DNA from: Oscillospiraceae bacterium
Lineage (GTDB): Bacteria > Bacillota > Clostridia > UMGS1810
Assembly: GCA_015069015.1 (NCBI GenBank)
Contig: SVJK01000007.1
Span: forward strand, 1 to 55,196
DNA: 55,196 nt
Reading direction: 5' to 3'
Part shown: one piece after another, positions 49,440 to 55,196 of the stretch
How positions within the stretch are numbered: the first letter of the stretch is position 1
Layout of the letters: each line of letters begins with the position of its first letter
Position numbers and translations under genes: made by a program
Notes under the pieces: generated by a model
What the model saw: only the letters and a program-made list of their open reading frames with translations
Databases searched by the model: none
What the model was told of the DNA's origin: nothing

Positions 49440-49823
49440 ATGAAAGAAGAGATTATTGAAAACGGAATTGAGTATGTAAGGGATGGTGATTACTACATAC
49501 CCAATCTGAAAGCACCCGAAGGAAAATTCAACATTGGAAAGTACGGCAGGCTACACTCAATATTTATTAAAGAAAACAGACCTTGCATTTACTCAATGAA
49601 GATGCTCAACGGAACTTGGCTTGCTTATCTCGAAGAGATTGACACAACCTCAAGAGAAATGGTTGATAAGCTTGTTAAAGATATGGCGGTCAAACAAGGT
49701 ATCACCGAAGAACTAAAAGCAAAAGACCAAATGACTTGGGTTGCTGCAATGAATGGCATAAAACATTCCGCAGAAGAAATTGTATTACGAGAGTTTGTAT
49801 GTTCTATGGAGGTACGAAGATGA
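49440..49823 (+). CDS. tnpV: TnpV-family transposon-encoded protein
   Basis: This 127-residue protein matches the TnpV family carried by Tn4451-type and related Clostridial mobile elements: YVRDGDYYIPNLKAP, IGKYGRLHSIFIKENRPCIYS, LEEIDTTSREMVDKLVKDMA and WVAAMNGIKHSAEEIV. Its role in transposition is poorly known. No transposase or resolvase gene (TnpX) is in the window, so this looks like a remnant or a cargo piece. It overlaps the next start by four bases (ATGA). Confidence 0.8.
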   Translation: MKEEIIENGIEYVRDGDYYIPNLKAPEGKFNIGKYGRLHSIFIKENRPCIYSMKMLNGTWLAYLEEIDTTSREMVDKLVKDMAVKQGITEELKAKDQMTWVAAMNGIKHSAEEIVLREFVCSMEVRR

Positions 49824-50104
49824 GTTTTCTTGACGAATTATATTATAGTAACATCAATCCAAATGAAAGTCGAAACAGAAAAAAGTTACCATACGAAAAA
49901 TCTTTAAAGACTTTTTCTGACATTGAAAGCAAACTGACAAAAGAATTAAACGGCGAAAACTTAAAGCTCTTTAATGACCTTGTAAATGCAAGTGATGAAA
50001 TTAGTGCTACAAGCGGGGTTGAAAATTTTAAAATAGGATTCAGACTTGGAGTTATGATGATGTGCGACAGTTTGTTTTCTGACAGCAGCATTCTGAAAGA
50101 TTAA
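49820..50104 (+). CDS. DUF6809-family small protein
   Basis: This 94-residue protein is read from the ATG at 49820 behind GGAGG. The start FLDELYYSNINPNESRN and the middle FKIGFRLGVMMMCDSLF fit the DUF6809 family often seen in Clostridial mobile elements and accessory regions. It is translationally coupled to tnpV (ATGA). Function unknown. Confidence 0.7.
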   Translation: MSFLDELYYSNINPNESRNRKKLPYEKSLKTFSDIESKLTKELNGENLKLFNDLVNASDEISATSGVENFKIGFRLGVMMMCDSLFSDSSILKD

Positions 50105-50696: not shown

Positions 50697-50734
50697 AATA
50701 AGGATAGAGCGAGTAGTTCCACTCTATCCTTATT
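50697..50734. terminator. Bidirectional intrinsic terminator
   Basis: AATAAGGATAGAG (50697-50709) pairs perfectly with CTCTATCCTTATT (50722-50734), with TTTT following on the plus strand. It separates the convergent secreted-protein gene and the GajB-like gene. Confidence 0.85.
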
Positions 50735-50779: not shown

Positions 50780-52378
50780 TTATTGTATCATAATCATATT
50801 CTCTTTGCCAAACCATTCTTCGGTCTTCGCTCTCATGCTTTCCTTAAAGTTAGGGCAATAAACGACCAAATTCCTCTTGGCTCTAGAACAACTGACATAA
50901 AACAGCTTGTGGGTTCGGGCATATATTTTGGGGTTTCGCACTGTTCCGAGTAATTGTTCATAATTATAATTGTTCCAATTTCCATTATCCAGTATTACAA
51001 ACACATCATCGAATTCAGCACCTTTAATGCCGTGTTGTGTAGAATATGGAGAATGTTTGTTAATGTATTCATACAGATTAACAAGTTCGCCATATTTAAT
51101 ACTCATAACTTGGGTGTAGATTTCTTCGTGATCAATAGCAAATTGTTTGAGTTTATCATCAATAAGACAAATTTTTGAATCATGTGCAAATTGAACTATT
51201 TCCTTAATTGTAGAATCTTTCATTTCAGAAAGCGTTTGGATTTTTGCATAAAGCTCCTGCTTGTCTTTGTGATGAAATATCTTGTAATCGGTTGCTTTTA
51301 TAAATTCATAATATTTCTTCATTTGATACAATCGGATCATTTCTTGGAGTTTTAACAAATGAGAAATCAGTTTATCGGGAGAATCTCCTAAAATTCGGTC
51401 TGTATTTGTATAGACAGACATAAATGATTGAAAATTGTACCTGTGTGATATTAAACGATGTGTCAAATATAATTCTTTTGTGTTTTCAGAATCATTAAAA
51501 TCCCAATCTTTAAATGCAGAATGTTGTTTTACAACGTCAATATCCGTGCTGTTATTTGAGTAGAGAAAAATCGCATTGCCTTCCAAATTTAAATTTTCTG
51601 GTGTTTGAGTAATATCTGTTCTTATTTTGTTTAAAAGGTTTATTACTTTTTTGGAGCAACGACGATTTCCTTCGATTACAACCTCATCTAGTATACCATC
51701 GATAATATATTTTCTGACATCTCCGATACCAGTTCCATATATTGATTGCATTGGATCCCCAAACAATCCAATTAGTGTTTTAGGGTTGTGACTAATAAAA
51801 GTTTCCAATAACAAGGAAATTATCAAATTACTAGTATCTTGATATTCATCCACGAAAATATAATCATACTTATCCGCTAAAATTTTATTTATCAACGGAT
51901 ATTTTGAAAACAAAAAATGCCCTAATTTCAATACTTCATCGTGAGAAATAACTCCATCTTCTACTTTCAAATACTCCTTATATTCGATAGTTTCAGGATG
52001 ATAGGTATCATATGTAATATCCTGTTCGCCTGAATATCTAATACCAGTACCTCTAGTTTCTTTTTCTGCAGATACTAATTCGACAATGGCAGAAGATAGG
52101 TTATTTTTATAATTCCTAATTAGTTCCCAAACAAAGTTGTGTATAGTATCTACGAATAATCCTTCAAAGGGAACTCTTTCTCTGATTTCATTAACCGCTA
52201 CGTTTGTATAAGTGATACACGCAACCCTAGCTTTAGGATTGTTAGAAAATATATGCTGTAAAGATTGAATCAGTGCATATGTTTTGCCACTACCGGCACC
52301 GCCGTTAACTACAAAATTTTTATGACCATCAATCTTTTCGTAAATTTTATCAAGGTGAGGATTTATTTTGCCAGCCAT
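50780..52378 (-). CDS. gajB: GajB-like UvrD-family helicase (Gabija)
   Basis: This 532-residue SF1 helicase has Walker A GGAGSGKTYAL (~26), motif Ia ACITYTNVAVNEIRERV, Walker B YIFVDEYQDTSN (~173), motif III GDPMQSIYG (~208) and a compact C-terminal part with FYVSCSRAKRNLVVY (~495). It is shorter than housekeeping UvrD/PcrA (~720 residues), as GajB proteins are. Its start overlaps the GajA-like gene by 16 bases. The pair matches Gabija, in which GajB senses DNA ends or nucleotide depletion and activates GajA; the assignment is by architecture. Confidence 0.82.
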   Translation of the reverse strand: MAGKINPHLDKIYEKIDGHKNFVVNGGAGSGKTYALIQSLQHIFSNNPKARVACITYTNVAVNEIRERVPFEGLFVDTIHNFVWELIRNYKNNLSSAIVELVSAEKETRGTGIRYSGEQDITYDTYHPETIEYKEYLKVEDGVISHDEVLKLGHFLFSKYPLINKILADKYDYIFVDEYQDTSNLIISLLLETFISHNPKTLIGLFGDPMQSIYGTGIGDVRKYIIDGILDEVVIEGNRRCSKKVINLLNKIRTDITQTPENLNLEGNAIFLYSNNSTDIDVVKQHSAFKDWDFNDSENTKELYLTHRLISHRYNFQSFMSVYTNTDRILGDSPDKLISHLLKLQEMIRLYQMKKYYEFIKATDYKIFHHKDKQELYAKIQTLSEMKDSTIKEIVQFAHDSKICLIDDKLKQFAIDHEEIYTQVMSIKYGELVNLYEYINKHSPYSTQHGIKGAEFDDVFVILDNGNWNNYNYEQLLGTVRNPKIYARTHKLFYVSCSRAKRNLVVYCPNFKESMRAKTEEWFGKENMIMIQ

Positions 52379-54423
52379 TCCAATCCCTCCTTAATGTATT
52401 CGGGTATTATCCAATTAGAATAATCGTTATTACTGAAATACAAAATGTCCGTAGCAAAAGCACTCTTCTTATCAATGCAATTAGCCGCTATATCGTAGTA
52501 TGACACCTTACCATCTTTGATTTTACCTCTATTTTTCAATCCTTTAAAATCATTCTTGTGCTGCTTAATAAATTCATAGTTGCAATTAATAAAGGCATCT
52601 TCAAAACTTCTAGCGTGATATCGATTTTGCATTGTTTGATAGGCAATTCTTAGCATGCCATTTGAATCGGATACCCATTTACCCTCGGTGTTTTTTGTTA
52701 ATGTTTTCTCTGATTTTTTTAATGTTTTTAATTCATCAAAAGGAATATTGTTAAAGTAATGCTTTAACGAAGCATTACTGGTTGCTTCGCCTGAAGACAC
52801 CTTGCAGGCTTCATAATATGTTATTCCATTTGAAGCGACTTTTCCTTTTGTTGAATCAATATCTGTTATAATCAACGCTTTTATCCCTAAATAACTGATA
52901 AATTCGTCAAAAACATGGGAATATGCACCAACTTCAACAACAGAGATATTCTGCGACATTAAGGGCACATATCCGTCAATATCTTTGTTATCTATATCTG
53001 TTTTCTGCATCATTGCATTTATTAATATTCTTTCTGTATCACCTTCAACAAAAACAACTTTGTCTGCAAAAAACAACTCGGAACGTTCCAACGTTAAATA
53101 TTGCTTTAAAAATCTAAAGCGGTTTTCGCCATTATCAGCAGAATCCATCATTTCAGTTTCTAAATCAGATAAGTTTTTTGAATAGATTGCATCGTTTTCT
53201 CGATAAAAGAATTTGATCTTTTCAAAATTACTTTGAGAAACAATATGGGAGGAATGGGACGATAAAATCATTTGGAGATTAATTTCATCTTCTCCTTCTT
53301 TACCTTTACGTCCCTCCTGCAATTTAGCTTGGATGTTTTTAATAAAAACATACTGCATCTGTGGATGAGTGTGGGCTTCCGGTTCTTCAATATATAGTAA
53401 ATTTATATCCGATGGAACCTGATTGCTCTTTGTAATCTTTCTAAATTCATCAATTTGAATATTTATGTAGAAAATCATTGCAAAAAGATTCATATATCCT
53501 AATCCATTATACTCTTCCGGCAGAAATTCAGTTTCTTTGCTGTATACTACATTTGCATTTTCTTTTATCAAAGTAGATGCTCTGAGCATGGATTTAACCG
53601 ATAATTTCGCCTCTCCTTTTCCATAGGAAAAGCGTTCAATGTCTGTTATTACATCTTTAAAGATTTTCTTATAACTTTTGTCTAACTTGACATCTGATTC
53701 TTTTAACACATCGTCTATCAAACTTTCATCGAGTGTTTCCTGACGTCTTGCTTCGCAATATTTAACAGCCAATTTAGATAAGGTCTGACTTTTAGCTTTT
53801 GCTTCATCTAAATTACTTACGTCACGAATAGCCTTGATGTATTTAAAGTTAATAATTCGCTGAATATCGCTTTTTTCTTTAATTTCAACATATTCATTTG
53901 TATCAGCTGGATTAACACTTTTGATGACTTGTTTGAAATATTTCGAATGGTTCTTCTCTACATATTCACGTATGGTACGCTTCTTTTTACCTGCTTTGCT
54001 ACAGTATACAGCATAATCTTTTGCTGCACTTAGGTATAACTCATATGTCATTACATATTCAAATCTAATAATTACAGTCTTCTCTTTTGGATCTAAAGAC
54101 ATAAATAGCTTAGATAAATTCCCTATATAATCCGTTTCATTATATTCAATGTAGATATTTAACGAAATATAAAATGGTTCATATTCTTCTACAGACAGAA
54201 TTTTGTCTTGATTAAACGGGAATTTTCTTGCAAGGTATTTCTTATTAAAATCATGAAATTCAAACGAAGATTTAGATTCGCTTAAAAATCGGTCTAAAAT
54301 ACTAAGCAATGATGTTTTGCCGGTATTATTTTTACCAATAATAACAGACAAATCCTCCTCTATTGATAAAACAAATTTTTCTAATGCTCTAAAATGATTA
54401 ATTTCAAATTTAGTAATCTTCAT
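52363..54423 (-). CDS. gajA: GajA-like OLD-family ATPase/TOPRIM nuclease (Gabija)
   Basis: This 686-residue protein has an N-terminal ABC-type ATPase with Walker A IIGKNNTGKTSLL (~30-37), a long helical insertion (~130-290), the signature region EYNGLGYMNL (~305), Walker B LLYIEEPEAHTHP (~345) and the switch SSHSSHIVSQ (~386). A TOPRIM nuclease domain follows with VVFVEGDTERIL (~465) and LIITDIDSTKG (~517). OLD class 2 proteins paired with a UvrD-like helicase define Gabija. At 686 residues it is longer than the best-studied GajA (about 580). It follows the AbiEii gene by 48 bases. Confidence 0.82.
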   Translation of the reverse strand: MKITKFEINHFRALEKFVLSIEEDLSVIIGKNNTGKTSLLSILDRFLSESKSSFEFHDFNKKYLARKFPFNQDKILSVEEYEPFYISLNIYIEYNETDYIGNLSKLFMSLDPKEKTVIIRFEYVMTYELYLSAAKDYAVYCSKAGKKKRTIREYVEKNHSKYFKQVIKSVNPADTNEYVEIKEKSDIQRIINFKYIKAIRDVSNLDEAKAKSQTLSKLAVKYCEARRQETLDESLIDDVLKESDVKLDKSYKKIFKDVITDIERFSYGKGEAKLSVKSMLRASTLIKENANVVYSKETEFLPEEYNGLGYMNLFAMIFYINIQIDEFRKITKSNQVPSDINLLYIEEPEAHTHPQMQYVFIKNIQAKLQEGRKGKEGEDEINLQMILSSHSSHIVSQSNFEKIKFFYRENDAIYSKNLSDLETEMMDSADNGENRFRFLKQYLTLERSELFFADKVVFVEGDTERILINAMMQKTDIDNKDIDGYVPLMSQNISVVEVGAYSHVFDEFISYLGIKALIITDIDSTKGKVASNGITYYEACKVSSGEATSNASLKHYFNNIPFDELKTLKKSEKTLTKNTEGKWVSDSNGMLRIAYQTMQNRYHARSFEDAFINCNYEFIKQHKNDFKGLKNRGKIKDGKVSYYDIAANCIDKKSAFATDILYFSNNDYSNWIIPEYIKEGLEWLAK

Positions 54424-54471
54424 GATTTCTCCTATCTTAGATCTGCTGTAATTTAGATTGCATATTCTTCT

Positions 54472-55196
54472 CTATTTCCATTTGTTTTCGCTTGATAGCC
54501 ACTGACCACTATACTTTTTGTTTTCTAACGCAGCACTAAACGGCTCTGACAGGAATGCTTTTATCGTTTTTAACACTATTTTAAAATCATTTGTCTTGAT
54601 GTTAATCTTTTTGATAAAAGCCTTCCACTTTTTCTGCATAGCATCATCAGAATCAAATTCAAGCATTTGTTTAAACTGTTCTATGGTGAAGTTGTGCTTT
54701 CTGTTTTCAAAAGTCTTTTTAAGTGCTTCGGTTAATGTTGCACCATCAAAATCAAATTTGTTTGCAAGATAATAAATATCATAATAGTCTTTCATTCTGC
54801 TTGAAAATTCCATCAAGCTAAGAATTGCATCTATTTTCTCTGCAACGGTTGTTTCAATAGAGTATGTGTTTACCATCGGTGCATCAAAATCTGAAAGCTG
54901 AGTTGGTATCTTTCGTTTTTCCTGCTTTGGTACGATTATATCTCCAACACCGAAATCAATGCTAAACGGTGTTTTTGTGTTCTTAATTCGAGCAATTATT
55001 GATGCACCGATACCTGCATACTTCTTTGCAACAGCAATAGGAGCAATATCTTTAATTTCAAAAGTTACGAAGTCATTGCCGGTATCTACCGCTATAATTT
55101 TTTCAAGAATCTCTTTTAATTGTTCAGGTGTGTTTGGAATTTTACGAAGCAAAAAGTCAACATCAACAGTTACTCTGCTATCGAAGTCAGTGAGAG
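54472..55196 (-). CDS. abiEii: AbiEii/AbiGii-type nucleotidyltransferase toxin (5' end beyond window)
   Basis: The frame stays open to the right edge; the start lies outside the window. Seen are the nucleotidyltransferase motif SRVTVDVDFLL, where V-D-V-D holds the metal-binding aspartates, then the C-terminal helical domain with MKDYYDIYYLANKFDFDG, typical of the AbiEii family. AbiEii toxins block growth by modifying tRNA ends when their AbiEi antitoxin is lost. No antitoxin gene is visible; it would be upstream, beyond 55196. It precedes gajA and may be co-transcribed with it. Confidence 0.85.
   Translation of the reverse strand, partial: LTDFDSRVTVDVDFLLRKIPNTPEQLKEILEKIIAVDTGNDFVTFEIKDIAPIAVAKKYAGIGASIIARIKNTKTPFSIDFGVGDIIVPKQEKRKIPTQLSDFDAPMVNTYSIETTVAEKIDAILSLMEFSSRMKDYYDIYYLANKFDFDGATLTEALKKTFENRKHNFTIEQFKQMLEFDSDDAMQKKWKAFIKKINIKTNDFKIVLKTIKAFLSEPFSAALENKKYSGQWLSSENKWK

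Follow-up and report, generated by a model that had tools for sequence, protein, structure and literature searches.

Does the toxin gene that directly precedes a Gabija operon at the end of this contig form part of the operon, or do two defence modules lie side by side? The window (the whole stretch of DNA analysed, 55,196 nt) is the entire contig C14 of a MAG of 101 contigs. Three minus-strand genes at its right end are read inward from the contig end. The features are as follows:

54472..55196, minus strand: AbiEii/AbiGii-type nucleotidyltransferase toxin gene, its 5' part off the contig (PADLOC, Pfam and PDB match)
54424..54471, minus strand: spacer of 48 nt with the RBS AGGAG and without terminator-like structure
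52363..54423, minus strand: gajA, 686 aa, AAA ATPase and OLD-type Toprim nuclease (HMM, alignment, model)
54313..54336, minus strand: GajA Walker A motif GKNNTGKT, residues 30-37 (7 of 8 positions invariant in 35 relatives)
52855..53046, minus strand: Toprim active site of GajA, from E460 to the DxD residues D521/D523 (no variation across 35 relatives)
50780..52378, minus strand: gajB, 532 aa UvrD-like helicase (16-nt overlap with gajA; HMM)
50697..50734, minus strand: intrinsic terminator with a 16-pair stem and T tail, 3' of gajB at the end of the operon

An earlier sequence-only reading had described three same-strand frames with spacings of 48 and -16 bases, and the ORF positions agree: AbiEii and gajA are separated by 48 nt, and gajA and gajB overlap by 16 nt. 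The 48-nt spacer was examined for a terminator between AbiEii and gajA, which would speak against the one transcript proposed in that reading, and none is present. Promoter-like matches within the region occur at background (28 found versus 27.8 expected) and so decide nothing. From the arrangement of the genes, a single abiEii-gajA transcript is plausible in the window.

The window GajA matches the PADLOC model PDLC00079 at 7.2e-230 over residues 1-685 (model of 702 positions) and contains the Pfam domains AAA_15 and OLD-like_TOPRIM. Residues E460, G499, D521 and D523 are invariant among 35 aligned relatives, and Walker A is nearly so. These residues correspond to the active-site residues E379, G409 and D432/D434 of B. 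cereus GajA (PMC10781630). In a Foldseek search of the PDB, the top four matches of the predicted model (pLDDT 82, pTM 0.75) are solved Gabija GajA structures (E 4e-19 to 3e-18), with TM of about 0.44-0.56, so the likeness is partial. Identity to B. cereus GajA is only about 14% in the structural alignment, and a sequence search from the window GajA did not retrieve the solved GajA structures. The identification as GajA is nonetheless borne out by the HMM match, the intact active site and the closest fold.

The same reading had pointed to a long GajA with a helical insertion. The extra length is real (about 80-81 residues more than B. cereus GajA before the Toprim glutamate), as is a helical stretch at about residues 127-264 of the predicted model. 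Neither is special to the window. The studied GajA has a helical dimerization insertion (PMC10781630), and the window helices occupy its place in the model. Relatives align along GajA residues 1-686, and the PADLOC model and about 80 relatives share the length, making it ordinary for the subfamily. A novel GajA insertion was rejected, given that the same region is found in PDLC00079 and these relatives and surrounds standard dimerization helices.

GajB matches PADLOC model PDLC00135 at 3.5e-175, has a Pfam UvrD-helicase domain with Walker A and a DEYQD box, and its profile retrieves solved GajB; its gene adjoins the 3' end of gajA. The PADLOC check proposed earlier therefore returned both Gabija HMMs rather than the double miss that would speak against Gabija. 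Most GajBs of the long-GajA subfamily contain a stretch of about 95 residues, near position 323, that is absent from the GajB proteins of the window and of two other loci (L004, L005).

The window thus shares with the Gabija of B. cereus VD045 (a class 2 OLD nuclease, GajA, with a UvrD-like helicase, GajB) the gene pair, its order and overlap, and the ATPase, Toprim and helicase motifs. It differs in its longer and divergent GajA and in an operon headed by AbiE. Gabija is marked by a 4:4 GajA-GajB complex with phage-restricting nuclease activity, which the pair in the window may form.

The toxin gene matches PADLOC model PDLC02288 at 6.9e-69 and Pfam PF08843 at 6e-42, so its assignment as AbiEii holds even with its N-terminus off the contig. 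The frame is open from 55194 to a stop at 54472, leaving 240 aa. Full-length relatives have 298 aa and start 58 residues earlier; the contig therefore ends inside the gene, and the window AbiEii is without about 58 N-terminal residues. It belongs to the same AbiEii family as the toxin of the type IV toxin-antitoxin system AbiE (AbiEi/AbiEii) of S. agalactiae and Lactococcus. The closest solved sequence is AbiGII (PDB 9hlo, 6.7e-25), yet the partners in related Gabija cassettes are AbiEi by PADLOC. In nearly all AbiEii relatives examined, a winged helix-turn-helix AbiEi gene overlaps AbiEii by 1-10 nt, compared with 4 nt in S. agalactiae (PMC3985639), and AbiEi is therefore expected just outside C14. 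Neither AbiEi nor sequence overlap with the right end of the window was found at 180 of the bin's 200 other contig ends. A search of viral contigs for AbiEii relatives returned none.

The explanation we favour, to which we give about an even chance, is that this is a horizontally acquired long-GajA Gabija operon headed by AbiE, and that AbiE is an interchangeable 5' head. It starts from the observed gene identities, order, spacing and intact motifs, and from the recurrence and independent joinings described below. Judging by gene order and the known behaviour of the families, abiEi would lie just off the contig, and one promoter before it would drive abiEi-abiEii-gajA-gajB. AbiEi would repress this promoter, setting expression of the whole transcript. 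GajA and GajB would form a nuclease-helicase complex that cuts phage DNA, and AbiEii, a nucleotidyltransferase toxin, would halt growth once AbiEi falls. The head may thus let the operon regulate itself, make it more stable and add a second, abortive response. The layered defence that the sequence-only reading suggested for AbiE with Gabija is possible on this view. The same kind of head may serve the Lamassu, methylase, HamA and TIR genes that it precedes elsewhere.

The main rival, which we consider quite possible though short of an even chance, is juxtaposition in a defence island: two independent modules that share an orientation by chance, have their own promoters and have no functional link. 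Gabija and AbiE are already known, as is the fact that they cluster in defence islands, and since defence genes cluster generally, adjacency alone is weak evidence of coupling. In all we examined about 118 Gabija loci, some with little or no upstream sequence, taken from a genome collection and from genome searches that covered the class and phylum. AbiE lies directly upstream of Gabija in 6 of them; since the flank was limited to 1.5 kb at many of the search loci, AbiE copies further away could have escaped notice. Among 80 Gabija relatives from the genome collection, AbiE is never directly upstream; in one (L062) it lies about 4 kb from Gabija on the other strand. In the nearest GajA relatives, L004 and L005 (87-88%), HsdM-HsdS abut gajA instead of AbiE, and homology between these loci and the window ends about 10-16 nt before gajA. 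An AbiE-Gabija unit conserved with the nearest relatives was accordingly rejected. The other genes upstream of gajA in these relatives, the many Gabija loci without AbiE, the many AbiE loci that stand alone and the background level of promoter-like matches all fit juxtaposition.

Against juxtaposition stand the loci in which the arrangement recurs. Co-directional AbiE directly upstream of Gabija was identified in G351 (L115), G843 (L142), G334 (L114/L144), G877 (L143) and G657 (L137). The first four carry one AbiEi-AbiEii-gajA-gajB cassette of about 6.7 kb (94-95% DNA identity) and are genomes of one family; the cassette has moved as a unit across genera. Its AbiEii is intact in L115 and L142 and frameshifted in L114/L144 and L143. 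L137 (3595-3944) has an intact AbiEi (PADLOC 1.3e-94); after it come a remnant of AbiEii interrupted by stops and, next, gajA. The window, L114/L115/L142 and L137 fall into three separate groups in the GajA tree, where L137 sits on a long branch and its exact placement is unsure, and the AbiEii of the same three lineages fall into three separate groups in the AbiEii tree. From these separate groups, AbiE most likely joined Gabija at least three times independently, each time in identical order and orientation. The combination is thus not unique to the window: three or more independent lineages have it. The lack of a terminator between AbiEii and gajA also speaks against juxtaposition, as do the tight overlaps of AbiEii with other defence genes elsewhere.

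Those other neighbours are varied. Directly 3' of AbiEii we identified an N6 methylase (L123), a C5 methylase with an HATPase gene (L130) and the start of HamA (L125). A co-directional gene lies within 100 nt downstream of abiEii in at least 10 loci, versus 2 with one upstream of abiEi. Most other plasmid AbiE pairs examined stand alone. In L126 (448-3341, minus strand) and L131 (4253-7146, minus strand), AbiEi-AbiEii is directly followed by Lamassu LmuA, with which AbiEii overlaps by 4 nt, and then LmuB. On a Proteobacterial conjugative plasmid (L151, 9253-13690), AbiEi, AbiEii, a TIR gene and a hypothetical gene follow one another with overlaps, 4 nt being shared by AbiEii and the TIR gene, and that strand also carries a separate Gabija at a distance of about 4 kb.

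Gabija also has other heads. In another lineage (L134, 3524-4785; L154; L156) an epsilon/HTH antitoxin and zeta toxin (PezAT-like) pair heads Gabija, and the zeta toxin gene overlaps the start of gajA by 14 nt. From gene order, toxin-antitoxin heads on defence operons appear to be a recurrent though minority design. DNA methylase-like genes lie 8-98 nt from gajA in L019, L020, L024, L040, L048, L058, L068, L004 (1802-4793) and L005 (2679-5688); some are HsdM-HsdS pairs that lack HsdR, and others are single N6-methylase-like genes, the latter recognised by eye. These genes could be a self-marking partner. Six Bacteroidota loci (L022, L023, L025, L026, L036, L037) have a small XRE-like HTH gene, likely another operon regulator, that lies 22-34 nt upstream of gajA.

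Returning to the AbiE-headed operon, a signal that could support its predicted regulation was found in the cassette. In L115 and L114, a terminator is followed by a promoter-like TTTACA-17-TATAAT (11/12 match in L115) and then abiEi, and a perfect 9-bp inverted repeat spans the -10 just before abiEi. The other AbiE loci have no inverted repeat before abiEi as clear as this one. In S. agalactiae, AbiEi represses its own promoter (PMC3985639), and the L115 promoter with its inverted repeat resembles that autorepressed abiE promoter. The pattern of gene loss also bears on function. The toxin has decayed in two of the three lineages, in one only in some genomes, and AbiEi and gajAB persist, so AbiEii is dispensable in those two lineages. 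Retention of AbiEi with gajAB fits better with AbiEi as a regulator than with a requirement for the toxin, although the same picture would result if a superfluous toxin had simply decayed. Overall, the points against the favoured explanation are the AbiEi unseen in this genome, the small share of Gabija loci that are AbiE-headed, the HsdM-HsdS genes of the closest relatives and this toxin decay.

AbiE might instead act mainly in addiction: it would keep the Gabija element from being lost once transferred, and would take no part in phage defence. PezAT-like pairs act in stabilisation, and such a pair occupies the same place before gajA in three loci. The GC of the Gabija genes is 0.31-0.32 versus 0.37 for the contig, which points to transfer, and PMC11062541 describes AbiE modules as stabilising mobile elements. 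We nevertheless regard addiction as possible but on the unlikely side: toxin genes decay in loci that still have gajAB, so the toxin is not needed for retention, and AbiE is reported as a phage-abortive system (PMC3985639).

That the window AbiEii is itself a decaying relic and not a working toxin is improbable. Its 5' end is off the contig, and two of three lineages show frameshift or truncation of the toxin, but the 240 visible residues are open, are 65-77% identical to full-length relatives and keep the stretches TVDVDF, AEKIDAI and KDYYDIYYL. Misassembly or misbinning that placed AbiEii beside gajA is scarcely credible even for a contig of a fragmented MAG that ends inside AbiEii, as about 720 bases separate the AbiEii-gajA junction from the contig end and other genomes, including the single-contig G334, have these genes in the same order.

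The idea of an AbiE head may extend further. AbiE and PezAT could be promiscuous regulatory heads whose autorepressing antitoxin would sense infection or loss and then switch on the toxin together with a downstream DNA-attacking system (Gabija, Lamassu, methylase, HamA or TIR), in a two-step immune circuit that would have evolved repeatedly. We consider this broader proposal doubtful. Defence systems are usually counted and tested singly. Should toxin-antitoxin modules prove to be recurrent 5' heads, the expression of Gabija, Lamassu and other systems may be timed by autorepressing antitoxins, and part of the system would go unseen whenever gajAB is tested without its head. Naturally occurring variants, in which the toxin is intact or frameshifted or the antitoxin stands alone, could separate regulation from toxicity.

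We found no report of an AbiE-Gabija operon in the open literature, most subscription journals lying outside this scope. AbiE is otherwise described as an operon of two genes, whereas the window has two more defence genes after AbiEii. In lactic acid bacteria, Gabija loci occur next to restriction-modification genes (PMC13304284). A defence gene beside gajAB is thus shared with L004 and L005, but no toxin-antitoxin head is reported there.

Signs of mobility were also noted. Next to the Gabija operon but on the other strand, Pfam identifies genes for a TnpV-type transposon protein and a DUF6809 protein (49440-50104), likely a mobile-element remnant. Elsewhere, a viral contig (L088, 6001-8139) and Vibrio sp. 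AND4 (L073) have identical GajA proteins, which suggests a Gabija carried in a prophage region.
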